Assembly: GCF_000763055.1 (NCBI RefSeq)
Contig: NZ_KN214134.1
Span: 452,909-516,908, forward strand
Reading direction: 5' to 3'
DNA from: Collinsella sp. 4_8_47FAA
GTDB taxonomy: Bacteria; Actinomycetota; Coriobacteriia; Coriobacteriales; Coriobacteriaceae
Length of the DNA: 64,000 bases
Shown here piece by piece: positions 39,162 through 58,580 of this stretch (positions within the stretch are counted from its first letter, which is position 1; each line of letters opens with the position of its first letter). The translations under genes were made by a program, and so were the position numbers. The notes under the pieces were generated by a model, which saw nothing but the letters and a program-made list of their open reading frames with translations, did no database searches and was not told where the DNA came from.

Positions 39162-40991
39162 GTGCGCAATCTCAAAATACTGTTTTCCTATCTAGGGGCA
39201 TACCGTCGCGATGCCATCCTCGGCGTGTTCTTTGTGTCGGTCGAGACGGTGCTCGAGCTGTTTATCCCGGTCATCATGGCCAACATCATCGACGTGGGCG
39301 TGCCTGCGGGTGATATCAACTACATGCTGCTGCAGGGCGCGTACATGTTGGTGTGCGCTGCGCTTTCGCTGGTACTGGGCTTGGGTTATGCCCGCACGTC
39401 CGCCCGCGTTGCCTCGGGCCTAGGCGCTAACCTGCGCGAGGCCGAGTACAAAAAGATTCAGACGCTCGCTTTTGGTAACCTGGACAACTACGACGCCAGC
39501 TCGCTCGTCACCCGCATGACCACGGACATCACCGTTATCCAAAATGCTGTGGGCAACGGCTTTCGCCCTATGGTGCGCGGCCCGGTGACGCTTATCGTCG
39601 GCCTTATCTACGCGCTGATGCTGTCGCGCCCGCTCGCCACCGTCTTTGCGATCATCTTGCCCGTGCTGGCAATCGTACTGGGCGTCATCACCTATCGCGT
39701 CAGTCCGCTCTACCGCCAACTCCAGACCTCGATGGACCACCTCAACGGCGTGGTACAGGAAGACCTCACCGCCGTGCGTGCCGTCAAGGCCTACGTTCGT
39801 ACCGAGCACGAGGAGGCCAAGTTCGACACCGTCAATACCGAGCTCGCCGGCACTGCGACGAAGACCTTTGGCAACGCGGTGCTCAACCTGCCGGTGTTTC
39901 AGCTGTCGATGTACGTGGCTGCGCTCTCCATCCTGTGGATTGGCGGTCGCATGATTCTCGCCGGCAAGCTGGGCGTGGGCTCGCTCACGGGCTTTATGAG
40001 CTACGTCCTGCTGATCATGAATTCGCTCATGATGATTTCCAACGTGTTTTTGCTGCTCACGCGCGCTCTTACGAGTGTGGGCCGTATCGCCGAGGTGCTC
40101 GATGAGGAGCCCTTTATCGCCAACCCCGCGGGAGACCTCGCGATTGCGGCGCCAGCGGACGGCAGTATCGAGTTTCGCGACGTTTCCTTTAAATACCGCG
40201 CGGATGCAGCCGAGGATGTGCTCGAGCATATCGACCTTCGCATCGAGAGCGGCTCGACGGTGGGCATCCTCGGCGGTACGGGATCGGGCAAGAGCTCGCT
40301 TGTGCAGCTGATTGCGCGCCTGTACGACGCTACCGAGGGCGCCGTGCTTGTGGGCGGACGCGACGTGCGCGACTACGACCTCGCGACTCTACGCGACGCT
40401 GTGGGCATTGTGCTGCAAAAGAATGTGCTGTTTACGGGTACCGTGCGCGAGAACCTGCAGTGGGGCAATCCGCAGGCGTCGGACGATGAACTCCTCGCGG
40501 CTTGCCGCGCGGCGTGCGTGGACGAGTTCCTTGATCGCATCGGCGGGCTGGACGGCGAGTTGGGCCAAGGCGGCGCTGGTGTTTCGGGTGGCCAGAAGCA
40601 ACGCCTGTGCATCGCGCGCACGCTGCTCAAGCATCCGCGCGTGCTCATTTTTGATGACTCCACCAGCGCGGTCGATATGGCGACCGACGCAAAGATTCGC
40701 GAGCATATCGCTCGGATTCCCGATGCGACCGTGCTCATCATCGCCCAGCGCATCGCGAGTGTCATGGATGCCGATCGCATTGTGGTGCTGGACGACGGTC
40801 GTGTCCACGGCGTGGGCACGCACGAGGAACTGCTGGCGGGCGACAACATATACCAGGAGATTTACGCCTCGCAGATGGAGTTTGCGGGGAACGCGGACGC
40901 CGGCGATGGCAACGACGGTGGCTGCGCGAATGATCCGTTTTCCTCTGTCGCATGCGGATCACCCTTGGAAGGGGGTGAGCGCCATGCCTAA
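39162..40991 (+). CDS. Heterodimeric ABC exporter, subunit with degenerate ATP site
   Basis: A 609-residue half-transporter: an ABC-type membrane domain (about 1-310, six helices) and an ATPase domain (about 330-580) with Walker A GGTGSGKSS, signature VSGGQKQR and Walker B LIFDDSTSAVD. The catalytic Glu after Walker B is Asp, as in the degenerate site of heterodimeric exporters such as TM287/288 and BmrCD. The Walker B-D loop DDSTSAVD supports that. The start GTG 39162 is read after a ggggg segment. It overlaps the partner gene by 8 bases. It likely exports drugs or lipids. Confidence 0.9.
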   Translation: MRNLKILFSYLGAYRRDAILGVFFVSVETVLELFIPVIMANIIDVGVPAGDINYMLLQGAYMLVCAALSLVLGLGYARTSARVASGLGANLREAEYKKIQTLAFGNLDNYDASSLVTRMTTDITVIQNAVGNGFRPMVRGPVTLIVGLIYALMLSRPLATVFAIILPVLAIVLGVITYRVSPLYRQLQTSMDHLNGVVQEDLTAVRAVKAYVRTEHEEAKFDTVNTELAGTATKTFGNAVLNLPVFQLSMYVAALSILWIGGRMILAGKLGVGSLTGFMSYVLLIMNSLMMISNVFLLLTRALTSVGRIAEVLDEEPFIANPAGDLAIAAPADGSIEFRDVSFKYRADAAEDVLEHIDLRIESGSTVGILGGTGSGKSSLVQLIARLYDATEGAVLVGGRDVRDYDLATLRDAVGIVLQKNVLFTGTVRENLQWGNPQASDDELLAACRAACVDEFLDRIGGLDGELGQGGAGVSGGQKQRLCIARTLLKHPRVLIFDDSTSAVDMATDAKIREHIARIPDATVLIIAQRIASVMDADRIVVLDDGRVHGVGTHEELLAGDNIYQEIYASQMEFAGNADAGDGNDGGCANDPFSSVACGSPLEGGERHA

Positions 40992-42882
40992 GACCGCAGC
41001 CCAAGCACGCCCGGCCGACCTCAAGCGCACTGTGCGTCGCTTGCTCTCCTACATGGGGCATGCCAAGTTCTCGTTGCTCGCGGTGGGCGTGCTCGCCTCC
41101 GTCGCCGCCATCGCGAGCCTCGCCGGCACCTACATGGTGCGCCCCATCGTTAACGGTTTGGCCACGGGCGGGGAGGAACTGCTCGCCAAGCAGGTCATCC
41201 TGACGGCGATCATCTACGCCGCGGGCGTGCTCTCGGCCCTGGGCTACTCACAGATCATGGTGCGCGCGGCCCAACACGTGGTGTCCGATATTCGCCGCGA
41301 CCTGTTCGCGCACATCCAGACGCTGCCGCTCAGTTATTTTGACAGCACGCGCTCGGGCGACATCATGAGTTTTTTCACCAACGACGTCGACACCGTCTCC
41401 GAGGCGCTTAACAACAGCTTTGCCAACGTGATTCAGGCCGCCATTCAGGTTGTGGGCACCACGGCTATGCTCATCATCCTTAACTGGCAGCTCACGATTA
41501 TCACACTCGTGTGCGATGCGGCCATTGTGCTGTATGCGCGCTACTCGGGCGCGCGCTCTAAGCGTTTCTTTGCTGCCCAGCAGGCATCGCTTGGCGACCT
41601 GGACGGATATATCGAAGAGATGGTCTCGGGTCAAAAGGTCATCAAGGTCTTTAACCGTGAGGCGGCGAATGTCGCCGGCTTTGCCTGCCGCAACGACGAG
41701 CTTCGCCGCACCGGCACCGCCGCCGTGAGCTATGCCAACTCCATGGTGCCCATGACTGTCGTGATTGGCTACGTCAACTATGCCATCGTCGCCGTGGCGG
41801 GCGGCATGCTCTGCATCAAGGGGCTCGCCGACGTAGGTGCGCTCGCGAGCTACCTGGTCTTTGTGCGCCAGGCCGCCATGCCCATCAACCAGTTTACGCA
41901 GCTCGGCAACTTCTTGCTCAACGCGTTGGCCGGTGCCGAGCGCCTGTTTGCCGCCATGGACCTTGAGCCCGAGGTGGACGAGGGCTGCGTGGAGCTGGTG
42001 CAGACGGGCGACGCCGCGTGGGCGTGGAAGATTCCCGAGGGCCAGGGCGTGGGCGCGTATGGGCATCTGCATGACGTGGCAGCCGTTGATGAGTCGGGCC
42101 GCGCGGTGGCCGCCGACGGCACCGAGCTCACGTGCGGCTTGGTCCCGCTTGCCGGCGACGTGCGCTTCCATGCCGTGGACTTTTCCTACGTGCCGGGCAC
42201 CCGTGTGCTCACGGATCTCAACCTGTTTGCCAAGCCGGGGCAAAAGATCGCGTTTGTGGGCTCGACGGGCGCCGGCAAGACGACCATTACCAACCTCATC
42301 AACCGCTTCTACGAGGTCGATGACGGCGAGATCACGTACGACGGCATCGACGTCAAGCACATTGCCAAGGCCAGCCTGCGCGGGTCGCTCGGCATTGTGC
42401 TGCAGGACACGCACCTGTTTAGCGGCACCATTGCGCAGAACATCCGCTTTGGCAAGCTCGACGCGACCGACGAGGAGGTGCGCGCCGCTGCCGAGGCCGC
42501 CTGCGCGGATTCGTTTATCCGCCGCCTGCCTAGAGGGTACGACACACCGGTCACGGCCGATGGCGCCAACCTGTCGCAGGGCCAGCGCCAGCTGCTCGCC
42601 ATCGCGCGCGTGGCCGTCGCCGATCCGCCGGTGCTCATCCTGGACGAGGCCACGAGCTCCATTGACACGCGTACCGAAAAGCTCATCGAGCGCGGTATGG
42701 ACCGCATCATGCGCGGTCGCACCACGTTTATGATCGCGCACCGCCTGTCCACTGTCCGCGACGCCGACGCCATCATGGTCCTCGAACACGGCCGCATCAT
42801 CGAGCGCGGCACGCACGAAGAGCTACTCGCCCAGCACGGCGAGTACTGGCAGCTGGCGCATGGCTTAAAAGAGCTGGATTAA
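40984..42882 (+). CDS. Heterodimeric ABC exporter, subunit with canonical ATP site
   Basis: A 632-residue half-transporter and partner of the preceding gene. Its membrane domain ends near residue 320; the ATPase domain has Walker A GSTGAGKTT, signature LSQGQRQL and a canonical Walker B with Glu, LILDEATSSID. Between the membrane and ATPase domains there is an extra stretch of about 55 residues, CVELVQTGDAAWAWKIPEGQ and onward to VPLAGD, longer than in most exporters. ATG 40984 lies within the end of the first gene. The alternation of one degenerate and one intact site is the usual heterodimer arrangement. Confidence 0.92.
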   Translation: MPKTAAQARPADLKRTVRRLLSYMGHAKFSLLAVGVLASVAAIASLAGTYMVRPIVNGLATGGEELLAKQVILTAIIYAAGVLSALGYSQIMVRAAQHVVSDIRRDLFAHIQTLPLSYFDSTRSGDIMSFFTNDVDTVSEALNNSFANVIQAAIQVVGTTAMLIILNWQLTIITLVCDAAIVLYARYSGARSKRFFAAQQASLGDLDGYIEEMVSGQKVIKVFNREAANVAGFACRNDELRRTGTAAVSYANSMVPMTVVIGYVNYAIVAVAGGMLCIKGLADVGALASYLVFVRQAAMPINQFTQLGNFLLNALAGAERLFAAMDLEPEVDEGCVELVQTGDAAWAWKIPEGQGVGAYGHLHDVAAVDESGRAVAADGTELTCGLVPLAGDVRFHAVDFSYVPGTRVLTDLNLFAKPGQKIAFVGSTGAGKTTITNLINRFYEVDDGEITYDGIDVKHIAKASLRGSLGIVLQDTHLFSGTIAQNIRFGKLDATDEEVRAAAEAACADSFIRRLPRGYDTPVTADGANLSQGQRQLLAIARVAVADPPVLILDEATSSIDTRTEKLIERGMDRIMRGRTTFMIAHRLSTVRDADAIMVLEHGRIIERGTHEELLAQHGEYWQLAHGLKELD

Positions 42883-42931: not shown

Positions 42932-42996
42932 AAACCATCACAACATTCGACGTTTTTCGCCAAAATCGGGAAAAGCATCGAATGTTGTGATGGTTT
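42932..42996. repeat. Intergenic palindrome, family B, copy 1
   Basis: Perfect 19-bp arms, aaaccatcacaacattcga (42932-42950) and tcgaatgttgtgatggttt (42978-42996), interior cgtttttcgccaaaatcggg and onward. Copies also lie at 44174, 48278 and 58444. Confidence 0.9.
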
Positions 42997-43097
42997 TTCT
43001 GCCACTCGACCGGGTGGAATCGCTTTCTTGTGCACGAAGGTGTGCGGACCCGTGAGCAGGGGAATAAGGTTGGTTATCCGACTCCATTGGAGGGCTC

Positions 43098-44135
43098 ATG
43101 GACCTGCCGATCGTCCTGTCCCATAAGACCGCCTGGCTGTACCACAACGTGGCGCGCCCGTCCGAGCCGCTCTCGCGAGCAAGCAGCCTATACGATGAGG
43201 ACTCGCTTGCTAACGAGGCAGAGCCGACTGCGGACCTGCCCAAATTGGGACTCGATGCCAAAGGGCTGAGGGCTTCAACGGCAGTCGGGATCGTTACCGA
43301 CTATCTGGTCTCGATCGGTATTCCACGAGAAGAGCTCGATCATATCGACACGCTCGTCAACTTTGATTTTGAGCGCTCGACGCCGGCTGGATTTAGGTGC
43401 CACGTGTTTGGGGCGCCGGTACCTCCAGGCCATCTTATCGAGGTGGCAGAGGGCCTTCTGGTGGTTGATGAGGCCATGTGCTTTGTCCAAGCGGGTTCGT
43501 GGATGAGTGAGCCCGAGCAGTTGGAATATGGCTACGAAATCTGCGCCCGATACCATTTGAATCATCTGTCGACAGGCGATTATATCGAGATGGGGCAGAG
43601 GTATACCGTTGCCGACTTGATTGCCTATTGCAATGAGAACCGATCTCGTCAGGGGGCTATACACGCGGCCGCCGTGCTCAAGCGCGTGCACGATGGCGCG
43701 CGGTCGCCCATGGAGACGGCCACCGCAATCATGGTCGTAGCAAAGCGTTCCCAGGGAGGGTTGGGATACGCCAAGGTTGAGCTCAACCATCGGGTCGATG
43801 TTCCCAACGAGTTCAAGTATCTCGCAAAGGCCGGGTATTTCGAGATCGACGTATATGCGCCTGCGAGCGGTACGGGGATTGAATACAACGGCTCGGACCA
43901 TCTTGATAAACAGCGCAGCGCGTCGGACGCGGAGCGTATGACCGTGCTGAGCGCGCTGGGCTTTAGGATGATCGTCCTCACCGGGACTCAGTTTGCCCAC
44001 CAGCTGCAATTGCACCGGGCGATGAACGCCATCGCACTCGCTATGGGCCTTAAGTGCGACCGAAGCGAGGTGTTTCAGAAACGTCAAAACGACCTGCGAG
44101 AGTTCGTGATCCGGCACTGGGACGGCAGCCTTTAG
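43098..44135 (+). CDS. Putative DUF559-type (Vsr-like) endonuclease
   Basis: A 345-residue protein. The N-terminal 200 residues are not recognised. The last third has the pattern seen at the end of many actinobacterial AbiEi-like proteins with DUF559 nuclease folds: SPMETATAIMVVAKRS (about 194), ELNHRVDVP, YFEIDVYAP (about 245), GTGIEYNGSDHL (about 257), then a D-x2-R segment and LGFRMIVLT. The ordered E...D...E residues resemble a PD-(D/E)xK active site. ATG 43098 is used with ggagggc upstream. It lies between two copies of the same palindrome family, and its function, perhaps defence, is unproven. Confidence 0.55.
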   Translation: MDLPIVLSHKTAWLYHNVARPSEPLSRASSLYDEDSLANEAEPTADLPKLGLDAKGLRASTAVGIVTDYLVSIGIPREELDHIDTLVNFDFERSTPAGFRCHVFGAPVPPGHLIEVAEGLLVVDEAMCFVQAGSWMSEPEQLEYGYEICARYHLNHLSTGDYIEMGQRYTVADLIAYCNENRSRQGAIHAAAVLKRVHDGARSPMETATAIMVVAKRSQGGLGYAKVELNHRVDVPNEFKYLAKAGYFEIDVYAPASGTGIEYNGSDHLDKQRSASDAERMTVLSALGFRMIVLTGTQFAHQLQLHRAMNAIALAMGLKCDRSEVFQKRQNDLREFVIRHWDGSL

Positions 44136-44173
44136 GGGCGCTTTGGCCCTTCTACGGGGTGCTGTGGGCAGGT

Positions 44174-44236
44174 AAACCATCACAACATTCGACGTTTTTT
44201 GCCAAAAACGGGAAAAGCATCGAATGTTGTGATGGT
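44174..44236. repeat. Intergenic palindrome, family B, copy 2
   Basis: aaaccatcacaacattcga (44174-44192) and tcgaatgttgtgatggt-type right arm (44220-44236), same orientation as copy 1 on the other side of the DUF559-type gene. Confidence 0.85.
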
Positions 44237-44368
44237 CTGTGCTGAGGATGGGCCTAGAAAGTCCGTTTTGCTCGAAGCGACCTGTCCTGTCGTACGGGTG
44301 TCGGCATGATTCTCTCGTGGGGTATTATGTTTTCCGAAGAATAAAACGCCGCGTGAGGGGAGGGCTGC

Positions 44369-48278: not shown

Positions 48279-48341
48279 AACCATCACAACATTCAGCGAA
48301 AATCGCGATTTTGCCGAAAAACGTCGAATGTTGTGATGGTT
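48278..48341. repeat. Intergenic palindrome, family B, copy 3 (opposite orientation)
   Basis: aaccatcacaacattc (48279-48294) and gaatgttgtgatggtt (48326-48341). The interior reads as the reverse complement of copies 1 and 2. Confidence 0.85.
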
Positions 48342-48376
48342 CGCGCCCCGGGTCCGGCCACCCTTCGGGTCCGGTC

Positions 48377-48404
48377 ACCACAAGGGGGGCAGGCACCTTT
48401 GTGG
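48377..48404. repeat. Intergenic palindrome, family C, degenerate copy
   Basis: caccacaaggggggcaggca-type left side and cctttgtggcg right side around 48377-48404; pairing is weak compared with other copies. Confidence 0.6.
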
Positions 48405-48494
48405 CGATTGGGTTCCAACGGCCCGTGCCTTGGTATACCATGTACGCCGTTTGCGAATACACCCCACACCGCCGCACAACCCAGAAAGGCCTTC

Positions 48495-49316
48495 ATGGAC
48501 ACCATCTTCAGCCACATCAAAGCCGTGTTCTGCGATATCGACGGCACGCTGCTCACGAGCCAGCACACGGTGTCCCCGCGCACCGTGGCGGCGATTCGCG
48601 CCCTGCGCGAGCGCGGCGTGCTCTTTGGCCTGTGCACCGGGCGCGACGCCCACGCGACCGAGGCCATGTACAAGCTCTGGGGCATCGAAGGCCTGGTAGA
48701 CGTGATGGTGGGCTGCGGTGGCGCCGAGGTCATCGACCGTGCGCACGACATCAACGAGCTGAGCTATCCGCTGCCGGGCGAGACCATCGCGCGCATCTGC
48801 AAGCACATGGCGGACCTTCCGGCAACGCCCGTCTGCCCCCGAGACGGCGTGTTCTACGTGCCCGAGAGCAACGCGTGCGTCGAGCACCTGTCGCGCGTCG
48901 ATGGCGTGCCCTACCAGGTGGTCGATTTTGCCGAGTTTTTGCGCGAGCCGCAGCCCAAGGTGATGTTTACCATGGCGCCCGAGGTAATGCCGCGGGTGAT
49001 AGAGCGGGCGTCGACGTTTGCCGATGACACTGTTAAGGCAGCGGCCCTGCAGACCACGCAGCGGCTCTACGAGTTCATGGATCCGCGCGTGTCCAAGACG
49101 CGCGGCCTTGTGCGCGTGGCGGAGCTCAACGACATGGAGCTCCAGAACATCTGCGTGTTTGGCGATGCCGACAACGACACCTGCATGGTGGCCGACGCCG
49201 GCGTGGGCGTGGCCATGGCAAACGGCAGCGACGCCACCCGTGCCGCCGCCGACTTTGTAACCGCGAGCAACGACAAAGACGGCATCGCGATCTTTATCGA
49301 GGAACATCTGCTGTAG
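48495..49316 (+). CDS. HAD-superfamily hydrolase, Cof-type phosphatase
   Basis: A 273-residue HAD phosphatase of the Cof/YidA type: nucleophile motif FCDIDGTLLTS (about 10-20), GLCTGRDAHA near 50 (motif II), VRVAELNDMEL and metal-binding GDADNDTCMVADAGVGVAMANGSDATRAAA (about 223-250). It likely removes phosphate from sugar phosphates or flavin and pyridoxal phosphates; the substrate is not predictable. ATG 48495 follows gaaagg. It is monocistronic, followed by a family C palindrome. Confidence 0.88.
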   Translation: MDTIFSHIKAVFCDIDGTLLTSQHTVSPRTVAAIRALRERGVLFGLCTGRDAHATEAMYKLWGIEGLVDVMVGCGGAEVIDRAHDINELSYPLPGETIARICKHMADLPATPVCPRDGVFYVPESNACVEHLSRVDGVPYQVVDFAEFLREPQPKVMFTMAPEVMPRVIERASTFADDTVKAAALQTTQRLYEFMDPRVSKTRGLVRVAELNDMELQNICVFGDADNDTCMVADAGVGVAMANGSDATRAAADFVTASNDKDGIAIFIEEHLL

Positions 49317-49330
49317 CGCAGGGGGGGGAA

Positions 49331-49363
49331 CCGCCACAAAGGGGGCAGGCGCCTTTGTGGCGG
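49331..49363. repeat. Intergenic palindrome, family C, copy with a compensated base pair
   Basis: ccgccacaaagg (49331-49342) / cctttgtggcgg (49352-49363). Compared with other copies, A in the left arm is G and T in the right arm is C, so pairing is kept. Confidence 0.85.
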
Positions 49364-49822
49364 CCTCAGGCGATTTGGGCGAATTGATACCGAAAATCTG
49401 TGTGAAAATTCAGATATGGTTGTCTGAACATTACATTTCTAACCACCGATGAGTTAAAGATATTCCCATCAATTTGGTAGTCTATTCCTCCCGGTTAATG
49501 ACCTACCGTTCACGGTCGATTTTCGACCGTTCACAGGATGCTTGCTCTTGAGCAAAATGTTGTGCAAATAAATAAAATGCTATTAAAAAACTGATAACTA
49601 ACTTAATTACCAGTAGAAACAGATATTTCAGAGCGAATAAACGAAAGCAAATCTGAGTAAATATCAAGAGAATTGAGAACTGGCTACAAAAATGTCGGTT
49701 TTGTTGCTCGGATGTTTAAACAATAGTTACAATAGTATTACTACGCGAGCGCAATTACAGATTGCGCAGATACGTTTGATGGTGAAAGAGCAAGATCGCG
49801 GTCTCTTGGGGAGGAGACATCG
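49364..49822. other. AT-rich upstream region of the pilus locus
   Basis: About 460 bases, clearly AT-richer than the genes around them, without a credible frame. It holds accgttcac twice (about 49507 and 49527), with the second preceded by a ggtcga/tcgacc dyad; a possible promoter, TTGCTC and TACAAT (about 49704-49734); and a hairpin gcgcaat / attgcgc (49749-49767) in the predicted leader. The base composition suggests regulation by a nucleoid protein or acquired DNA. Confidence 0.5.
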
Positions 49823-52800
49823 ATGAAAGCGAATTCAGAAAAAACTAAGCAGAGTAAAAAAGCGACGCGCCGCGTACTGGCAGGCGTTTTGTGCGGAGCC
49901 TCCGTGTTGAGCCTGGTACTGTCGCTCGTCATGCCTCCGATCTCGCAGGCCATTGCCAACGATGTCCAGACAGATTCTGCCGAGGCGACCGTTGCAGACG
50001 CGAGCGCTTTGGGCGAGGACGCCGGTGCAGACGAGAACGTTTTGGGCGAGGAGGCCGGTGCAGGCAATTCCACGGGCAAAGACGCCGAAAACCGGAAAAG
50101 TGACGACGCTGAGGGTGGCGAGGGAGAAGACGCTGCTGCGGCGGATCCGGCTGCCGATGGCGCGGGAGCCGAGAGCGCTGCGCAGCCCGCGGATGATGGA
50201 CAGTCTGTCGATAAGGTCGCTACTGTTGCAAATGAAGGTGAGGTTCCGGGACTTAAAACAGATAAGGATGGGTTCGCGCTGCTGGAGGGAGATAAAGACC
50301 TGTCTACGTACCTTGACCTTCCCGCGGCGAAAAAGCCCGCAAAGCTGCGTCTGACTGCTGATATTAGTTCGAGCGATCCGATCTTAATCAATCACGACAC
50401 TACGATCGACCTTGCGAATCACAAGCTTTATTACAGCAACGGTAACCCTATGCAGGAAACCAAAGAGCCTGTTCGTGCATTTATCACAATTTCAAAGGGC
50501 TATACGCTAACTGTCAAAGGTGAGGCGAATGACTCGAAGACTGAAGCTACCAGTGGTGAACCTGGTCAGCCAGCAGAGATGCAGTTCATTGATGAAAGTG
50601 TTCCACAATCACTTACATACTACGTAACTGAAAGCACGCCTAACGGTTTTGGTACTAGGGAAACGACCTACCAGCACACTGTTGCCAATTTCGGCGCTAT
50701 CGTTGCATGCAAAAAGGGCTATGTAAATCAAGTCATTTCCGTTGAGGATGGGGGCACGCTCAACCTTCAGGGTGGCATGATCACAACGCCTCGTGCCCTG
50801 GGCAACGACGGCCACGTTATTTTCTCTCAGGGCGCTGTTTATATTTCTGGCGGTTACGTCACCAACGGCAACGGCGGTGGCTGGGGCGGTGGCCTGTGCA
50901 TGGCAGCGGGTTCACTCAATATGACCGGCGGCGTGATTGCAGCGAATAAGGCTGCTTCCGGTGGTGGAATTTTTGCCGACAGCGGTGTCACGTTGGATCT
51001 CTCCGGTGGTGTCATCTCGGGCAACGCTACGTATGCCGTTTCTGTCGGCAGGGGCGATACCGCCGACACCGGCGGCTACGGTGGCGGTGTTTATACCAAG
51101 GGTGCAACCGTAACCATCAGTGGTTCTGCCAATATAACTAACAACCGAGTTGAAGCTCAAGTCACTAATCAGGACATTTACAACAACGGTCTCCTCGGTG
51201 GCGGCGGCATTGCATCAACGAGCAGTGATAATAAAAAGGGATCACTGACCATGACGGGCGGTTCTGTTACGGCCAACTACTCCCATGAGGCTGGCGGCGG
51301 AATCTACGCTGGCTTTTGGAGCCAGGCGATTACGTTCAAAATGACGGGCGGTACAATCGCGGGCAACGTGGCGGAGAACGCCGAAGGCGGCGGTCTGCGT
51401 ATCAGCACTGGTACGCACGCGACAATTGACGCTGACGCTGACGGCAAGATATATATCACCAACAACAAGACCATGACGGGCTCTAACTCTGGCGAAGGTC
51501 GCAAGGGCGACTGGGGCGGCGGCGGTATCTTCATTCAGAAGAACGGCAGACTCAACATTCTCAAATCGCTCATCACTGACAATAAGGCCGGCGGCTGGAG
51601 TGGCGGAATTGGTGCGTGCCCTACAGGTGAGACGATCGTCTCGCACTCCGATGGTGCTGCTATCTATAACAATACTGATAACGTTGGTCAAGATGGCACT
51701 CCTTTGAACGAGCCCCATTATTCCGCTGGTGGCGACGGAAAAAAGCAAGACCAGCTGCCTGCATACATCACGGATAATTTCAAGAAGTTCGGCCATAAGG
51801 ATTTCTTCTTGGTACGCGATATGCAAGGCGCGGATAAGACGATTGCCGTTGTTCTTGGCAAGATGCTCGGTGGCGGCTCAGCTGGCTGGCATGGCACCTG
51901 CGATAACAATGAGATCAAAATCGATGCCAACGGCGGTGCCGAGGCTAAGTACATGTTCGGCCTTGAGGCCCATCCTACCGATCAGGCTAAAATTGATGCA
52001 CAGTCAGCGGCTACGACCATCATCAGCGGTAACTACTCTTACACCCACGGCGGCGGCATCATGACCAACGGCGACCTCATCGTCGGTGAGGTTACTTCCC
52101 TGGACGTGTATCCTGCAATCAAGGTCAAGGCTAACAAGGTCCTCATGAAGGACGGCAAACCGCAAGGCCTCACGGGCCACGGCTATAAGTTCAAGCTGTT
52201 GGGTAAAGCCGCCGATTCAGCTGGGGAGCCGTATTGGAATACGGACGGCTCACTTAACGCAAACGGATGCGAGGTGACGTCCGAGGTTACCGTTAATGAA
52301 AGTGGAGAGATCGTCATTGATACGGCTGCGAACTACCAGTCGGGCAATTACGACCTCTACCTTGTTGAAGTCCCTATCAGTGAGGAAGGCACGACCTTTG
52401 ATAAGGCCATTTACAAAATACATATAAAGGTTGGTACGACACCAGTTAATACGACCAGCCTCTTGGGGATCAAGATTAATCGTTATGGAGTTGATAGGAG
52501 CGCTTCCACAGTATCCGTAAAAAAAGAAGGCGCAGCGGACTTCACCGTGTGCGGATCTGACTTCTATAGTTGGAGCGAAGATGCGAACGATAAGACCGTC
52601 TCGACCGTAAAAATCGGCAACGCCTCCAAACCTGCGTTTACGAACGAGCTCGCGCCCTACCAGACCTCGGGCTCTTGGACACCTCAGGTGACCAAGAAGG
52701 TCGACGGCGGCGAGATGAAGAGGTTCAAGTTCGAGCTGTATGCTGAGAATTCCGACAACACGGAGACACCCCCTCAGACCAAATATACTTCTGCTGAGTC

Positions 52801-53233
52801 GAGAAATTCTCAGACAGTAACGTTCGATCCGGTACCAATCGGTCCACTGGGCATCAATGATCTTACCAATGGCAAAGCAACGTTCACCTACTACATCCGT
52901 GAATGCGACGCCAGCAAGGCCGATGGCACCAAACACGAAGGCTACAAGAACGACACCAAGAGGTTCAAGGTCGTGGTAACGGCAACGGACAACGATGACG
53001 GCACGCTGAAATGCACGCCGGTCTACTACGAGGTCGACGCCAACGATAATGTGAGCGCGAATTCAACCCCTAACCCCACCTTCACCAACACCTACTCCAC
53101 CTCTTTGCCCCTTTCTGGTATGTCGGGCGTCACTCTGACGTACCTTGCCGGCGCGGCGGTGCTTTGCGCTGCTGCGGCCTGGATGCACATTCGTCGCAAG
53201 GCGAATGCGAAGGGGGGTAAGCGTCGTGAATAA
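49823..53233 (+). CDS. Large pilus tip / adhesin protein, LPLSG-anchored
   Basis: A 1136-residue surface protein. An N-terminal signal region (basic start, helix about 17-43, VLAGVLCGASVLSLVLSLVM) is followed by an acidic low-complexity stretch (about 45-135). A parallel beta-helix with repeats of the type MTGGVIAANKAASGGGIF (about 300-600) comes next, then isopeptide-type pilin domains (about 880-1090). The C-terminus has LPLSG, a hydrophobic helix and KANAKGGKRRE, the sortase anchor. The beta-helix suggests carbohydrate or mucus binding. ATG 49823 follows ggggaggag. It overlaps the next gene by 8 bases. Confidence 0.85.
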   Translation: MKANSEKTKQSKKATRRVLAGVLCGASVLSLVLSLVMPPISQAIANDVQTDSAEATVADASALGEDAGADENVLGEEAGAGNSTGKDAENRKSDDAEGGEGEDAAAADPAADGAGAESAAQPADDGQSVDKVATVANEGEVPGLKTDKDGFALLEGDKDLSTYLDLPAAKKPAKLRLTADISSSDPILINHDTTIDLANHKLYYSNGNPMQETKEPVRAFITISKGYTLTVKGEANDSKTEATSGEPGQPAEMQFIDESVPQSLTYYVTESTPNGFGTRETTYQHTVANFGAIVACKKGYVNQVISVEDGGTLNLQGGMITTPRALGNDGHVIFSQGAVYISGGYVTNGNGGGWGGGLCMAAGSLNMTGGVIAANKAASGGGIFADSGVTLDLSGGVISGNATYAVSVGRGDTADTGGYGGGVYTKGATVTISGSANITNNRVEAQVTNQDIYNNGLLGGGGIASTSSDNKKGSLTMTGGSVTANYSHEAGGGIYAGFWSQAITFKMTGGTIAGNVAENAEGGGLRISTGTHATIDADADGKIYITNNKTMTGSNSGEGRKGDWGGGGIFIQKNGRLNILKSLITDNKAGGWSGGIGACPTGETIVSHSDGAAIYNNTDNVGQDGTPLNEPHYSAGGDGKKQDQLPAYITDNFKKFGHKDFFLVRDMQGADKTIAVVLGKMLGGGSAGWHGTCDNNEIKIDANGGAEAKYMFGLEAHPTDQAKIDAQSAATTIISGNYSYTHGGGIMTNGDLIVGEVTSLDVYPAIKVKANKVLMKDGKPQGLTGHGYKFKLLGKAADSAGEPYWNTDGSLNANGCEVTSEVTVNESGEIVIDTAANYQSGNYDLYLVEVPISEEGTTFDKAIYKIHIKVGTTPVNTTSLLGIKINRYGVDRSASTVSVKKEGAADFTVCGSDFYSWSEDANDKTVSTVKIGNASKPAFTNELAPYQTSGSWTPQVTKKVDGGEMKRFKFELYAENSDNTETPPQTKYTSAESRNSQTVTFDPVPIGPLGINDLTNGKATFTYYIRECDASKADGTKHEGYKNDTKRFKVVVTATDNDDGTLKCTPVYYEVDANDNVSANSTPNPTFTNTYSTSLPLSGMSGVTLTYLAGAAVLCAAAAWMHIRRKANAKGGKRRE

Positions 53234-54896
53234 GAAAGTTTGCTCCTTCCCAGTCTTGTTTGCGCTGCTTGCCCTCCTGATCGGCACCTGCGCGGTTGTC
53301 TTCCCCGCTTCCGCGCAGGCCGCGCCGACCTCGACCGGTTCCATCACGGTGAGCGGCACCGTGGCGAGCAGCTACGACGCCTACCAGATCTTTAGCGCCA
53401 ACGTCGTCGACGGCGACAGCGACGCCAAGATCGCCACCGATCTCGCCTGGGCAAGCGACGCCGTGCGCGACGCCGCGCTGCCTGTGCTGCACAGCGCCGG
53501 CATGCCCAATTCCCAGACCACCGCGCAGGAAGCTGCCGAGTGGCTCAACGCCGATTCCCACCTTACGAGCGCGCTGAGCGCACAGCTCGCTCGTTCCCTC
53601 CAGAGCTCTGACGCCGAGTCCGTGGCCCTTAACGCGGGCACGGCGGCCGAGCTGCCCTGCGGCTACTGGCTCATCGTCGCCAAAGACGACGCCATCGCCC
53701 GGGGCGAGGCCGGCACCGCGCCGATTATGGCCCTGGTGGGCGGCAGCGCCGTCACCGTCAAGCCCAAGGCGGCGACCCCCAAGGTGTCCAAGCATGTGCT
53801 GGAGGACAGCACCGCCGCCTGGCAGAAGGCCGCCGACGCCACGGTCGCCGACGACCTGTACTGGCGCCTCTCCGCCACGGTCCCGGCCGGGCTCACCGCC
53901 TACGACACCTATACGGTGCGGTTCGTCGACACCATGAGCGCGGGGCTCGACCCCTCCAAGGTGGCCGCGAGCATGCGCGTGTACGTGGCGGCGGGCGCAG
54001 ACGGCGGCTTTGACGCGGTCCAGACCGGCAAGGACGGCCGCGTCGGCACCGAGCCCGCGAAGGGCTGGACCGACATCACGGCCCAGTGCGCCACCAAGGT
54101 AGCGGCCGACGGTAAGACCTTCACCGTGCGCACCGGCGACCTAATCGCCGCGCTCGGCGGGGCCGACACCTTTGCCGCGGGCGCCCGCGTGGTCGCCGTG
54201 TACAATGCGCCGCTCAACAGCGCATGCAACCACGGCATCGCTAAGGGCAACCCCAACGAGGTCTACCTGCGCTACCCGCGCTCTCCCTTTGCCGACCAGT
54301 CCGGCGACGCCGGATTCACCCGCACGCCGAGCGATGATGCGTGCGCCTACACCTGGGATCTCGCGCTCACCAAGCGCGGTAGCGACGGCGACAAGCCGCT
54401 TGCCGGGGCGGTCCTGAGCATCGCCGACGACCGTGGTCGCACGCTGGCCGCCGACGGCACGTGGAATGCGGAGGGCAAGGTCACCGTCACCACGGGCGAG
54501 GACGGCCGCGTGACCGTCTCGGGCGTGGACTCGGGCAAGCTGGAGGTCCGCGAGCTCAAGGCACCCAAGGGCTACGCCGCCTTTGAGGGTACGCGCTCCG
54601 TGACGGTCAAGGCCGAGGGCCTGGACGTCGACCAGGTGGCCGCCGCCAAGCCCAAGCTCACCATTACCGCCGAGTCGCCCCTGCGCGCCGACAGCGCGGA
54701 CGGGTCGACGGGCAGCCTGGAGGCGTCGCTCATCAACACGCCCACCGGCACACCCCCTAGCATTACCACCGGAGGCTTTATGCCCTCGACTGGCGATATG
54801 GCAATGTACGCCGCGGCCGCCGCAGCGGTCGCCGGAGCCGCGCTCATCGTGGTCGCGCTCCTGGTCAAGCGGGGAGGTGGCAGCCATAAAGAGTAG
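53226..54896 (+). CDS. Pilin subunit (isopeptide-forming, MPSTG-type anchor)
   Basis: A 556-residue pilin. The start is GTG 53226, overlapping the adhesin stop by 8 bases, then NKKVCSFPVLFALLAL, an export signal. Domains: an N-terminal pilin domain with YDAYQIFSANVVDGD (about 45), a D2-type isopeptide domain around VSKHVLEDSTAAW and VRFVDTMSAGLDP (about 180-260), and a third, Cna_B-like domain with LEVRELKAPKGYAAF (about 440). The anchor is FMPSTG, not the usual LPxTG, followed by an Ala-rich helix and KRGGGSHKE. It is probably a basal or minor pilin. GC content is higher than in the flanking genes. Confidence 0.85.
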   Translation: MNKKVCSFPVLFALLALLIGTCAVVFPASAQAAPTSTGSITVSGTVASSYDAYQIFSANVVDGDSDAKIATDLAWASDAVRDAALPVLHSAGMPNSQTTAQEAAEWLNADSHLTSALSAQLARSLQSSDAESVALNAGTAAELPCGYWLIVAKDDAIARGEAGTAPIMALVGGSAVTVKPKAATPKVSKHVLEDSTAAWQKAADATVADDLYWRLSATVPAGLTAYDTYTVRFVDTMSAGLDPSKVAASMRVYVAAGADGGFDAVQTGKDGRVGTEPAKGWTDITAQCATKVAADGKTFTVRTGDLIAALGGADTFAAGARVVAVYNAPLNSACNHGIAKGNPNEVYLRYPRSPFADQSGDAGFTRTPSDDACAYTWDLALTKRGSDGDKPLAGAVLSIADDRGRTLAADGTWNAEGKVTVTTGEDGRVTVSGVDSGKLEVRELKAPKGYAAFEGTRSVTVKAEGLDVDQVAAAKPKLTITAESPLRADSADGSTGSLEASLINTPTGTPPSITTGGFMPSTGDMAMYAAAAAAVAGAALIVVALLVKRGGGSHKE

Positions 54897-55004
54897 CTGG
54901 CAGCCCCACAGAGAGCGGGGCGAGACGTAGCGAAGCAGATGCTAAGACACAGACAGACAGATTTAGATCAAACGGACTTCAAGCAGAAAGCAGAGGAAAA
55001 GAAG

Positions 55005-56723
55005 ATGAGCATGAGCAAGAACATCGCACGCCTGGCAGTAACCGCCGGCCTCACGGCAGCGCTGAGCTTCGGCGGCGTGATGGCCCCGGTGACCATGGCG
55101 TTTGCTGAGGGCGCGGCGGCTCCGAATAACAGCATCACCATCAATAAGAACAATGCGAATGGCGATGTGAAGTACAAGGCATACCAGATTTTCAAGGCAA
55201 ATGTCGTGGATGAAGACGACAACAAGGTCGTCTCGAACATTGATTGGGCGAGCGGTGAAGCGAGGAGCGCCGTCCTTGGATATCTTAAAACCGTGCCCAA
55301 CTCTGGTATTGACGAAAACTCTACAGCGCAGGCCGCCGCCAAATATCTGACCGACCATACGGAGGGTACTGGCAAGACGACCGCTATCGAGAACAACAAT
55401 TTGTTTAACGGATTGGCAAAGGCAGTTGAAGGAAGCGTAGGTCAAACGGCGACATCCTTTGCCTCTGACACTGTTTTTGAGCCCAAGGACAACAAGGGCA
55501 ATGCTCTGCAAGGCTACTATCTTTTTGTGACTGATAAAAGTACCTTGGGCACCGAAGAGAAGCCAGAGAAGAATACTGGCACTTCGCCGATCTTTGCTGT
55601 TGTTGGTGGTAAAGGCGTGACCGTTACCGAGAAGACCAGCATTCCAACCGTCGAGAAGCGGGTGCTCGAGGGCGCGAACTGGGGAAAGGTAAGCGACTCG
55701 TATATTGGCGAGGAGGTCGAATATAAACTGACTGGCCACGTTGCCAGTAACATCGCTACGTTCAATAAGTATGAGTATGTATTTCAGGACACGTTGAGCA
55801 AGGGTCTTGAGGTTGTGAAGGACTCCAATGACGCAGCGAAGGATCTCCACGTTTATATTGACAACAAGGGCAAGCAGACCGAGGTCGTGCAAGATGCTAA
55901 TAATGGATATAAGGTGGCTTTAGGGCAAGACAACGCCAATAAGAAGGAAAATCTCACCATTACTTTTAGCAACCTTAAGTCTGTGAAGGATAAAACTGGC
56001 GCAGCGATTAAAGTCGATGCTAATTCCAGCGTGGTCGTAACCTACAAGGCTAAGCTCAACAGTCAAGTCGAATACAAGGCCGACGGCGCCACCAATGAGG
56101 TCAAGCTCGTCTATTCCAACGATCCCATGTCTACCGGCACTGGCACTTCCGAGTCGGATGAAGTCACTGACTACGTCTTTGGTCTCGATGTCACTAAGGC
56201 CGACTCAGATAATACGGACAAGAAGCTCGTTGCCAGCTTTAAGGTCAAAGTGACCAAGGAGGGGGACACCGAAATTCCCAATGGCGGAAAATGGCTGACG
56301 CGGGAAGGTGGGCTCGTCGACGACGCAGGCCATGCCGGAGTGTTTACGACTAATACTGATGGCAAGGTATTTATTCCCGGTCTTGTTGAGGGCACATACG
56401 AGATCACCGAGAGCGAGACGCCTGCAGGTTACAACACCATCGATCCATTTACCATTACGGTGACGCCTACGTATGATGCGACTGGTGCACTGACGAATCT
56501 TAAGGTGGAGTCCAGCTCCAATATGGCAACTGCTAAGACTGAGAAAAGCGTGACCACGACCAAGATCCCAGTCACCATCCAGAACAAGAAGGGCTCTGGC
56601 CTCCCGCTCACCGGTCTTAACGGCGTGACCTTCACTTGGATCGCTGGTGGCGCGGTGCTGTGCATCGGCGTGGCGCACCTCATCCGCAGCCGTAAGCAGG
56701 CTGAGGAGTCCGAGCAGGAGTAA
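55005..56723 (+). CDS. Major pilin subunit, LPLTG-anchored
   Basis: A 572-residue pilin. The signal peptide is NIARLAVTAGLTAALSFGGVMAPVTMAFA (about 5-33). The pilin domain has YKAYQIFKANVVDEDD (about 59), then TSIPTVEKRVLEGANW near 210 with a candidate pilin Lys, a D2 domain with YEYVFQDTLSKGLEV, and a Cna_B-type domain with the E-box-like YEITESETPAGYN (about 465). The C-terminus is LPLTG, a helix and RSRKQAEESEQE. Asn/Lys-rich composition and lower GC distinguish it. ATG 55005 (agagga before it); ATG 55011 is possible. A strong terminator follows, supporting a high-output pilus shaft gene. Confidence 0.88.
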   Translation: MSMSKNIARLAVTAGLTAALSFGGVMAPVTMAFAEGAAAPNNSITINKNNANGDVKYKAYQIFKANVVDEDDNKVVSNIDWASGEARSAVLGYLKTVPNSGIDENSTAQAAAKYLTDHTEGTGKTTAIENNNLFNGLAKAVEGSVGQTATSFASDTVFEPKDNKGNALQGYYLFVTDKSTLGTEEKPEKNTGTSPIFAVVGGKGVTVTEKTSIPTVEKRVLEGANWGKVSDSYIGEEVEYKLTGHVASNIATFNKYEYVFQDTLSKGLEVVKDSNDAAKDLHVYIDNKGKQTEVVQDANNGYKVALGQDNANKKENLTITFSNLKSVKDKTGAAIKVDANSSVVVTYKAKLNSQVEYKADGATNEVKLVYSNDPMSTGTGTSESDEVTDYVFGLDVTKADSDNTDKKLVASFKVKVTKEGDTEIPNGGKWLTREGGLVDDAGHAGVFTTNTDGKVFIPGLVEGTYEITESETPAGYNTIDPFTITVTPTYDATGALTNLKVESSSNMATAKTEKSVTTTKIPVTIQNKKGSGLPLTGLNGVTFTWIAGGAVLCIGVAHLIRSRKQAEESEQE

Positions 56724-56823
56724 CGCTCGCTCACCCATCCCTTTGGCAGGTGGGATGTGTTGGCCATGAGACTTGCGGACACTTTTCTCGTCCATCCACG
56801 TTCTTGCTTTGCCATTCTCTTTT

Positions 56824-56860
56824 CGGGGCAGACTCCGCACTGGAGTCTGCCCCGTTTTTT
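56824..56860 (+). terminator. Terminator after the major pilin
   Basis: Perfect 13-bp stem cggggcagactcc / ggagtctgccccg, 5-base loop, then TTTTTT. The gap 56724-57025 has nothing else I can support. Confidence 0.92.
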
Positions 56861-57025
56861 GGTAGCGCAGCCAGGCTCCATTGCCCGATGGATCGAGCGT
56901 ATGAATATCGAACAGATGTTTGCAATTATTGCGTTTACCAGCCGTGGGTGCATGCACTCGCAGTAAAATACCCTTGCGACGCATCCCGTGCGCGGGCGGC
57001 CGACGACTCAATCGGAGGTCCCCAA

Positions 57026-57358
57026 ATGCTGAAATTCCTTAACGCGCTCGCCGCCCTCGCGGCGGTGGGCACGTTCGTCATCGCGTTTCTTGACTCGTAT
57101 GAGGTTCGGCTTAAGGTCCGTAGGCGCACGCGCGGTGCGGACGGTGGACGGCATTTGCGTCGCAAGCGCAAACAAGAATGCCCGGGGTTCGGAGCCCGGG
57201 CATTTAACAAAACCAGAAAACTAGGCCGCCCGCGCTCTCGTACATTTACGCGGGGTGCGTCGTTTTCTATTGACATTGTATCCCGAATCGCCCAGTCGAT
57301 TCGGGACATTTTGAAAACTCAAATGCTGGCTTATCCTCGACTGGACGGTGCAGTCTAG
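57026..57358 (+). CDS. Small basic membrane protein, unrecognised
   Basis: A frame of 110 codons starts with ATG 57026 after a strong ggaggt ribosome site. The N-terminus is one hydrophobic helix, LNALAALAAVGTFVIAFLDS, followed by a run of Arg and Lys, VRLKVRRRTRG, to about residue 55. A GC-rich hairpin (aatgcccggg / cccgggcatt, 57177-57204) lies inside the frame, and the sequence after it looks less like coding DNA, so the true gene may be shorter or broken. It lies between pilin and sortase. No family recognised. Confidence 0.4.
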   Translation: MLKFLNALAALAAVGTFVIAFLDSYEVRLKVRRRTRGADGGRHLRRKRKQECPGFGARAFNKTRKLGRPRSRTFTRGASFSIDIVSRIAQSIRDILKTQMLAYPRLDGAV

Positions 57359-57436
57359 CTGCGTTGTCCGGCGCGGAAGCTCGCTAATCGGCTATTATTT
57401 GTTTAGACAACCTGAGCTGTAGAGGAGTGACCGGCG

Positions 57437-58381
57437 ATGGTGCAGGGCGCCAAACATATGAAGAGCAATAACGCCGCGGACAACGGCGGCTCAAGCCCTC
57501 AGCCCAAACCTCAGTCCAAGCCCAAGTCCAAGCGCCGCCGCAAGCGGCTGCCGCGCTGGGCCGACCGGCTCATCACCATCGTCATTATCCTTATTGGCGT
57601 GGGCCTTATGACCTGGCCGTGGATCTTGGACCGGCTCGAGGCCTCGGGCGTGTTCAACCAGATCAGCACCGTGTCCAGCACCGTGGACGCGCTATCTGCC
57701 GAGGAGCGCGAGCGCATCCTGCTCCAGGCGCGCTCCTTTAACGAGCAGCTGGCGGGCGAGGCCACCGAGCTCCCTGCCGACCAGATTGAGCCCTACGCCC
57801 AGCAACTCATCTTTGACCGCGACCCCATGATGAGCTGGGTCGAGATCCCCTCCATCGACGTGAGCATGCCCATCTACCACGGTACGAGCGAAGAAGTCCT
57901 TATGGCGGGCGTCGGCCACCTGGAGGGCACGAGCCTGCCGGTGGGCGGCACCTCGACGCATTGCGTGCTCACCGCGCACTCGGGCATGCGTAACCTGAGC
58001 ATGTTCGATGACATCCACTCGCTGGAGCCCGGCGACCTGGTACTGCTGCACACCATGAACAAGACGCTCGCCTACAAGATGGTGGACTCCGAGGTGGTGC
58101 TGCCCGAGGAGATGGAGTCGCTGACCATCGAGCCCGGTGCCGACAAGGTGACGCTCGTCACCTGCACGCCCTACGGCGTGAACGACCATCGCCTGCTGGT
58201 GCATTGCGTGCGCACCAAGTACAACAAGAAGGACGTCGACAAGCAAAAGTCGCTGGCCGGCCGCCACTGGGGCAAGCGCGAGTTTGCCGTGCTCATTGTG
58301 GTCGTGGCCATTGTGCTGTTACTGCTGGACATCGTGATCCACGCGGTCCGTAAGCGCCGCAAGGCCAAGGCCTCGGCATAA
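57437..58381 (+). CDS. srtC: Class C sortase (pilus polymerising)
   Basis: A 314-residue sortase that joins pilin subunits and attaches the pilus. After a Lys/Pro-rich start, the first membrane helix is about 45-65 (LITIVIILIGVGLMTWPWIL). The catalytic residues are His in TAHSGM (about 179), Cys in TLVTCTPYG (about 241) and Arg in HRLLVHC (about 250). A second C-terminal membrane helix (about 282-304, VLIVVVAIVLLLLDIVIHAV) and basic tail mark class C. I chose ATG 57437 (gaggag upstream). It lies downstream of the three pilus genes, separately from their terminator. Confidence 0.92.
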   Translation: MVQGAKHMKSNNAADNGGSSPQPKPQSKPKSKRRRKRLPRWADRLITIVIILIGVGLMTWPWILDRLEASGVFNQISTVSSTVDALSAEERERILLQARSFNEQLAGEATELPADQIEPYAQQLIFDRDPMMSWVEIPSIDVSMPIYHGTSEEVLMAGVGHLEGTSLPVGGTSTHCVLTAHSGMRNLSMFDDIHSLEPGDLVLLHTMNKTLAYKMVDSEVVLPEEMESLTIEPGADKVTLVTCTPYGVNDHRLLVHCVRTKYNKKDVDKQKSLAGRHWGKREFAVLIVVVAIVLLLLDIVIHAVRKRRKAKASA

Positions 58382-58394
58382 GACATCGTCCAGA

Positions 58395-58428
58395 ACCACC
58401 ACAATGGGGACAGGCACCTTTGGGGTGG
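58395..58428. repeat. Intergenic palindrome, family C, imperfect copy
   Basis: accaccacaatggggacagg and cacctttggggtggt around 58395-58429; the arms carry two mismatches. Confidence 0.65.
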
Positions 58429-58443
58429 TCGGGGGCTTCCAAG

Positions 58444-58580
58444 CCATCACAACATTCGATGAAAATCTCGATTATGGCGAAAAACGTCGAATGTTGTGAT
58501 GGTTTTCGTTGTGGGCGGGATGCTTCTCGTTGTGGGCGACGCGGTTTTCGCTATGGACGGTGCGGTTTCGCTGCAGAACT
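58444..58580. repeat. Intergenic palindrome, family B, copy 4, plus degenerate tandem repeats
   Basis: ccatcacaacattcga (58444-58459) and tcgaatgttgtgatgg (58487-58502), oriented like copy 3. After it, three to four degenerate units of about 22 bases with the core ttcgttgtgggcg run to about 58580. The whole gap 58382-58708 has no gene. Confidence 0.75.

Follow-up and report, generated by a model that had tools for sequence, protein, structure and literature searches.

The window considered here is the whole stretch of DNA that was analysed, 64,000 nucleotides of Collinsella sp. 4_8_47FAA (contig NZ_KN214134.1, positions 452,909 to 516,908), and the locus lies between an ABC transporter pair and moaA, where two palindromes of one family (termed pal1) enclose a single gene. 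The features are as follows, in window coordinates.

42933..42995 (+), left pal1 palindrome, 63 nt
43098..44135 (+), gene for a 345-aa predicted nuclease with an N-terminal AbiEi-like region, module 1 (residues 53-115), a helix-turn-helix (HTH) module (156-200) and a Vsr/EDxHD-type nuclease domain (202-318)
43254..43442 (+), module 1 (residues 53-115), with two allelic types that track the outer palindrome arm
43563..43697 (+), module 2 (residues 156-200, helices 171-180 and 187-194), with a divergent type in genome G009 only that tracks the inner palindrome arm
43698..44132 (+), nuclease domain, 90-95% identical at the DNA level in all allele types
44175..44237 (+), right pal1 palindrome, 63 nt, in direct orientation
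48279..48341 (-), solo pal1 copy directly after the MFS gene
58442..58504 (-), solo pal1 copy between sortase and gatA

The earlier note described a DUF559-type gene between two same-orientation palindromes with identical 19-base arms, and this observation is confirmed. The two copies (also given as 42932-42994 and 44174-44236) are 97% identical with a spacing of 1242, and the arm AAACCATCACAACATTCGA is exact in three of the four arms, with one mismatch in the fourth. Eight arm matches occur in the window against 0.01 expected in shuffled sequence, and the single-stranded hairpins fold far better than shuffles (z = -9.0 and -8.3). The family is small, with only five copies in the genome, four of them within the window. 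In 71 distinct pal1 sequences, pairs 1-18 are almost always complementary, with double changes at several pairs, whereas position 19/45 is a C.A mismatch in 56 of 71, which reads T.G on the other strand and breaks the symmetry of the stem. Vsr enzymes nick T.G mismatches (PMC12907096), although any relevance of this here is speculation. Rfam returned only weak miRNA models below their gathering cut-offs, which were taken as chance, and a promoter and terminator scan was uninformative, with no intrinsic terminator-like site found.

The window protein matches DUF559 (PF04480) and MTES_1575 only weakly (E 0.09 and 0.0046, below the curated cut-offs; for DUF559, 13.1 bits against a cut-off of 20.6). 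However, 22 of 31 relatives hit DUF559, the best at 1.5e-6, indicating a relationship at fold level only. The AlphaFold model (pLDDT 88, pTM 0.87) places residues 202-318 on the catalytic domain of the EDxHD homing endonuclease I-Bth0305I (3r3p, Z 10.3 over 96 residues), on a Neisseria endonuclease-like protein (Z 9.9) and on Vsr (1cw0, Z 9.0), while a profile comparison gave a weak hit to 3r3p (E 0.1). In an alignment of 31 relatives, without residue-by-residue superposition on I-Bth0305I, D251, E262, Y263, D277 and R280 are invariant and H268 is nearly so. Residues 1-198 resemble the AbiEi antitoxin at a low Z of 5.9, and the fold search says little about residues 1-150 taken alone. The AbiEi-like end named in the earlier note is therefore plausible and the nuclease fold is well supported, but mitoribosomal proteins are among the better fold matches and the Vsr fold also occurs in RNA-binding proteins, so that the fold alone does not decide between DNA and RNA. 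No transposase family was found in Pfam, NCBIfam or PHROGs; NCBIfam gave no useful family and PHROGs only weak HNH-type hits.

The earlier note also suggested that such a gene may serve in defence, for which we found no evidence. In favour of an anti-phage nuclease carried on a cassette are the AbiEi-like and restriction-nuclease-like folds and the variable presence of the gene. However, three family members gave no PADLOC match at E up to 1, there are no defence neighbours, the gene stands alone, and two of 18 copies are disrupted. We regard this reading as very unlikely. Phage records match only the transporter part.

Of 43 genomes of the genus (individual genomes are given below as G numbers), 18 carry an orthologue 85-98% identical, and closely related contigs are labelled Collinsella aerofaciens or Collinsella sp. 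Every orthologue lies at the same place between two pal1 palindromes, normally 1240-1242 apart and intact in nearly all cases; in G012 one half of the left copy is cut off at a contig end, beside an IS-like end. G030 has the same flanks with exactly one palindrome at the junction and no gene, as expected after recombination of the two copies or before insertion, whereas G005 and G020 have neither gene nor palindrome. The gene is disrupted in G004 (frame broken) and in G006 (stop) (L035/L114 and L030), while both palindromes persist. The ABC transporter pair upstream of the cassette (window 39162-42882) is absent or replaced by MATE-like sequence in G005, G010, G020, G031, G033 and G034, while the cassette with about 40 bases of left flank remains in those that carry it, less clearly in G034. 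The alternative set in advance, a fixed core gene with palindromes varying independently, does not hold, as the gene is missing in G005, G020 and G030 and the palindromes vary with the gene.

The pattern goes beyond this locus. Eleven of twelve lineages of this nuclease clade, across several Coriobacteriia genera, are flanked by a palindrome pair (one of them weak), usually with their own arm sequence. Paralogues 35-42% identical have matched pairs of 56-78-nt palindromic segments with different arms. In a prospective test we searched 396 genomes of the class and examined six newly found clade members from other genera, of which L246, L248, L249 and L250 have clear pairs, L247 a weak one with only weakly matched outer arms, and L251, from another family of the order, none. 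Most of the DUF559-type relatives tested outside the clade have no comparable pair. It could be argued that generic intergenic repeats, terminators or REP-like, merely happen to flank the gene, since the palindromes lie in intergenic regions and a second palindrome family (CCACAAAGGNGCCTGNCCCCTTTGTGG), occurring five times in the window (31280, 46794, 48378, 49334 and 58399), flanks unrelated genes, namely the MFS and HAD genes in several relatives. However, pair scores of 48-58 stand far above those of 110 of 134 control genes, which scored under 14, and the high scorers other than this gene were due to that second family. This explanation is largely refuted by the clade-wide pairing and by the co-variation described below.

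At a second, paralogous locus (tRNA-Ser/UPF0126), all allelic states of a related cassette, termed L002-type, were observed. It occurs in + orientation (G000, G001, G004, G008 and G009 by inspection; G005 by gene and palindromes), in - orientation (G006, G007 and G034), as a solo palindrome (G012, G020, G025 and G031) and as an empty site with a few bases of the right arm left (G002, G003, G010, G011, G018, G023, G030 and G033). G034 (-), G031 (solo) and G023 (none) share flanks and thereby present three states in a comparable background. The three gene haplotypes are 84-88% identical, although upstream flanks are 90-95% and downstream flanks 97-98% identical, so cassettes have been exchanged independently of their surroundings. 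The proposal of the earlier note that the cassette moves or is lost by recombination between its palindromes is supported by these states and by the G030 allele, the predicted state without the cassette and with one palindrome left, and with the defence idea unsupported, its interpretation held only in part.

Palindrome arms co-vary with two protein modules among the orthologues of the window gene. Residues 53-115 are of type b in G009, G011 and G012 (89-91% identical to each other, 73-77% to G000), and residues 156-200, comprising the HTH helices, are of type b only in G009 (65-67%), while the nuclease domain is 90-95% identical throughout. The outer arm CCATCACAA becomes CCGTCCCAA in G009 and G012 (both copies) and in G011 (left copy only), and the inner arm changes only in G009, in both copies; besides the G009 type, the palindromes include CCATCACAACATTCGA and CCGTCCCAACATTCGA. 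The other pal1 copies of G009 keep the usual arms, and its own type occurs only in the cassette pair. Given that gene and palindromes are physically linked, part of this co-variation could be hitch-hiking, which may explain G011; however, the right palindrome is separated from the modules by the constant nuclease segment, and linkage alone explains G009 and G012 poorly. A second, independent case in the L002 family involves the same protein segment. Across distant lineages, on the other hand, arm similarity showed no clear relation to module similarity. The order is colinear, with the N-terminal module matching the outer arm, the HTH the inner arm and the nuclease presumably lying over the centre. 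Enzymes of the I-Bth0305I type are reported to dimerise on a target of nearly 60 bp (PMC3943268), and these palindromes are 63 bp.

Given these results, we contend, with a probability of roughly 0.58, that the palindrome-gene-palindrome unit is a compact, homing-like selfish cassette accompanied by REPtron-like dispersed solo palindromes. In this view, the N-terminal domains of the Vsr/EDxHD-fold nuclease would recognise the flanking palindrome, probably as a dimer with one protein per half site, and a solo palindrome would be the empty target, where a nick or cut would let a cassette-bearing copy be copied in using the shared flanks. Cutting or annealing between the two flanking copies would remove the gene and leave one palindrome, or flip the cassette when the copies recombine in inverted register. 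Comparison of genomes establishes the lineage-specific pairing, the concerted change of palindromes with two protein modules, the allelic states and the independent exchange of cassettes; recognition is thereby strongly suggested, but direct binding, cleavage, the nuclease driving movement and the direction of gain are inferred. No gain into a known empty site was caught among the genomes compared, and loss explains many states. Intact palindromes also remain on both sides of the gene, and self-cutting must therefore be tolerated or structure-dependent, unlike in classical homing genes. A more far-reaching possibility, which remains tentative, is a new class of mobile element in which a chromosomal Vsr/EDxHD nuclease travels with a duplicated 63-70-bp palindrome unique to its lineage, reads it through two exchangeable modules, and cuts solo palindromes, possibly as extruded hairpins with the conserved T.G mismatch, to insert, invert or excise its own cassette.

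Autoregulation with passive recombination remains a main rival, although we consider it unlikely. The palindromes would then be operators or RNA hairpins by which the protein controls its own expression, and loss, inversion and solo states would arise from RecA-type recombination between the duplicates. AbiEi-like antitoxins bind operator repeats, one palindrome lies in the upstream region at a fixed distance in orthologues, and the mitoribosomal fold matches would be compatible with this. However, autoregulation does not require a matched downstream copy, solo copies at unrelated genes or a gene-less solo allele, and the distance to the start codon varies from about -94 to -300.

A REPtron-like system, in which the nuclease maintains or mobilises the small palindromes while its own gene is only inherited or lost at fixed sites, as proposed for RAYT genes and REP repeats, is placed ahead of autoregulation and of defence, but is also unlikely. 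As in REPtrons, where genes are flanked by REPs (PMC3733652), the gene is flanked by palindromes that also occur as dispersed, low-copy solo copies, and the palindrome family is particular to the gene lineage. Each family has its own dispersed copies: pal2, a further palindrome family, has 2-10 matches per genome in 22 genomes, and the family of G013 has six sites in G013 and none in six other genomes. In contrast to REPtrons, the catalytic domain has a predicted Vsr/EDxHD fold instead of that of an HUH Y1 transposase, the palindromes are 63-70 nt rather than 20-40, copy number is low (2-10), and the cassette itself is lost, inverted or, by inference, gained. Cassettes are found in two orientations and as divergent haplotypes at one locus, and no dispersal is seen for the palindrome type of G009.

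The unit works most like EDxHD homing endonucleases, sharing with I-Bth0305I the predicted catalytic fold, a multi-domain N-terminal putative DNA-binding region, a long putative target and presence/absence alleles, but the gene is not inside an intron and does not interrupt its site; it lies between two intact copies of a palindromic site on a bacterial chromosome rather than in a phage, and its N-terminal region is AbiEi-like. The C-terminal domain belongs to the broad DUF559/REase_MTES_1575 fold family, within which the flanking pair is confined to one clade. As with integron gene cassettes and attC, a gene with an imperfect palindrome is lost leaving one site and a conserved unpaired position breaks the stem symmetry, but no tyrosine integrase was seen in the immediate neighbourhood, the cassette encodes a predicted nuclease and the palindrome differs per gene lineage. 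As in type I restriction HsdS target-recognition domains, two putative DNA-reading segments vary independently while the rest is constant, but here they are fused to a nuclease without a methylase or motor subunit. No description of DUF559 or Vsr-like genes between cognate palindromes was found in the literature searched, which did not extend to subscription papers and is not proof of absence. DUF559-type Vsr-like proteins are abundant in Actinobacteria and are annotated by Pfam as of unknown function, whereas in this clade the probable recognition site is attached to the gene as a pair, and natural module swaps already separate outer-arm from inner-arm recognition. This makes target specificity and mobility directly testable, and would add a homing-like element with intact duplicated target sites to the known selfish elements of gut bacteria.

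Other variation was observed around these palindromes. The pilin-like/sortase block between the two solo pal1 copies (window 48279-58504) is highly variable between species and is missing in G020 and G025; its loss in G020 by recombination between the palindromes pal3 and pal4 was rejected because 68 nt on the HAD side are kept. In G001, an IS256-like element (L048, 5732-7305) sits in the loop of the palindrome after the MFS position with an 8-bp duplication, ATAGAAAT, and similar ends lie inside the left palindrome of G012 and next to the right one of G023. Pairs of pal2 palindromes also bound completely different cargo at one locus beside a tRNA-dihydrouridine-synthase-like gene (L199, L202-L208), including, as named from reading the sequences, an IS256-like transposase, a 428-aa gene, a 170-aa gene, a multi-gene block with Sir2- and macrodomain-like ORFs, small ORFs of 88-146 aa and IS110-like genes.
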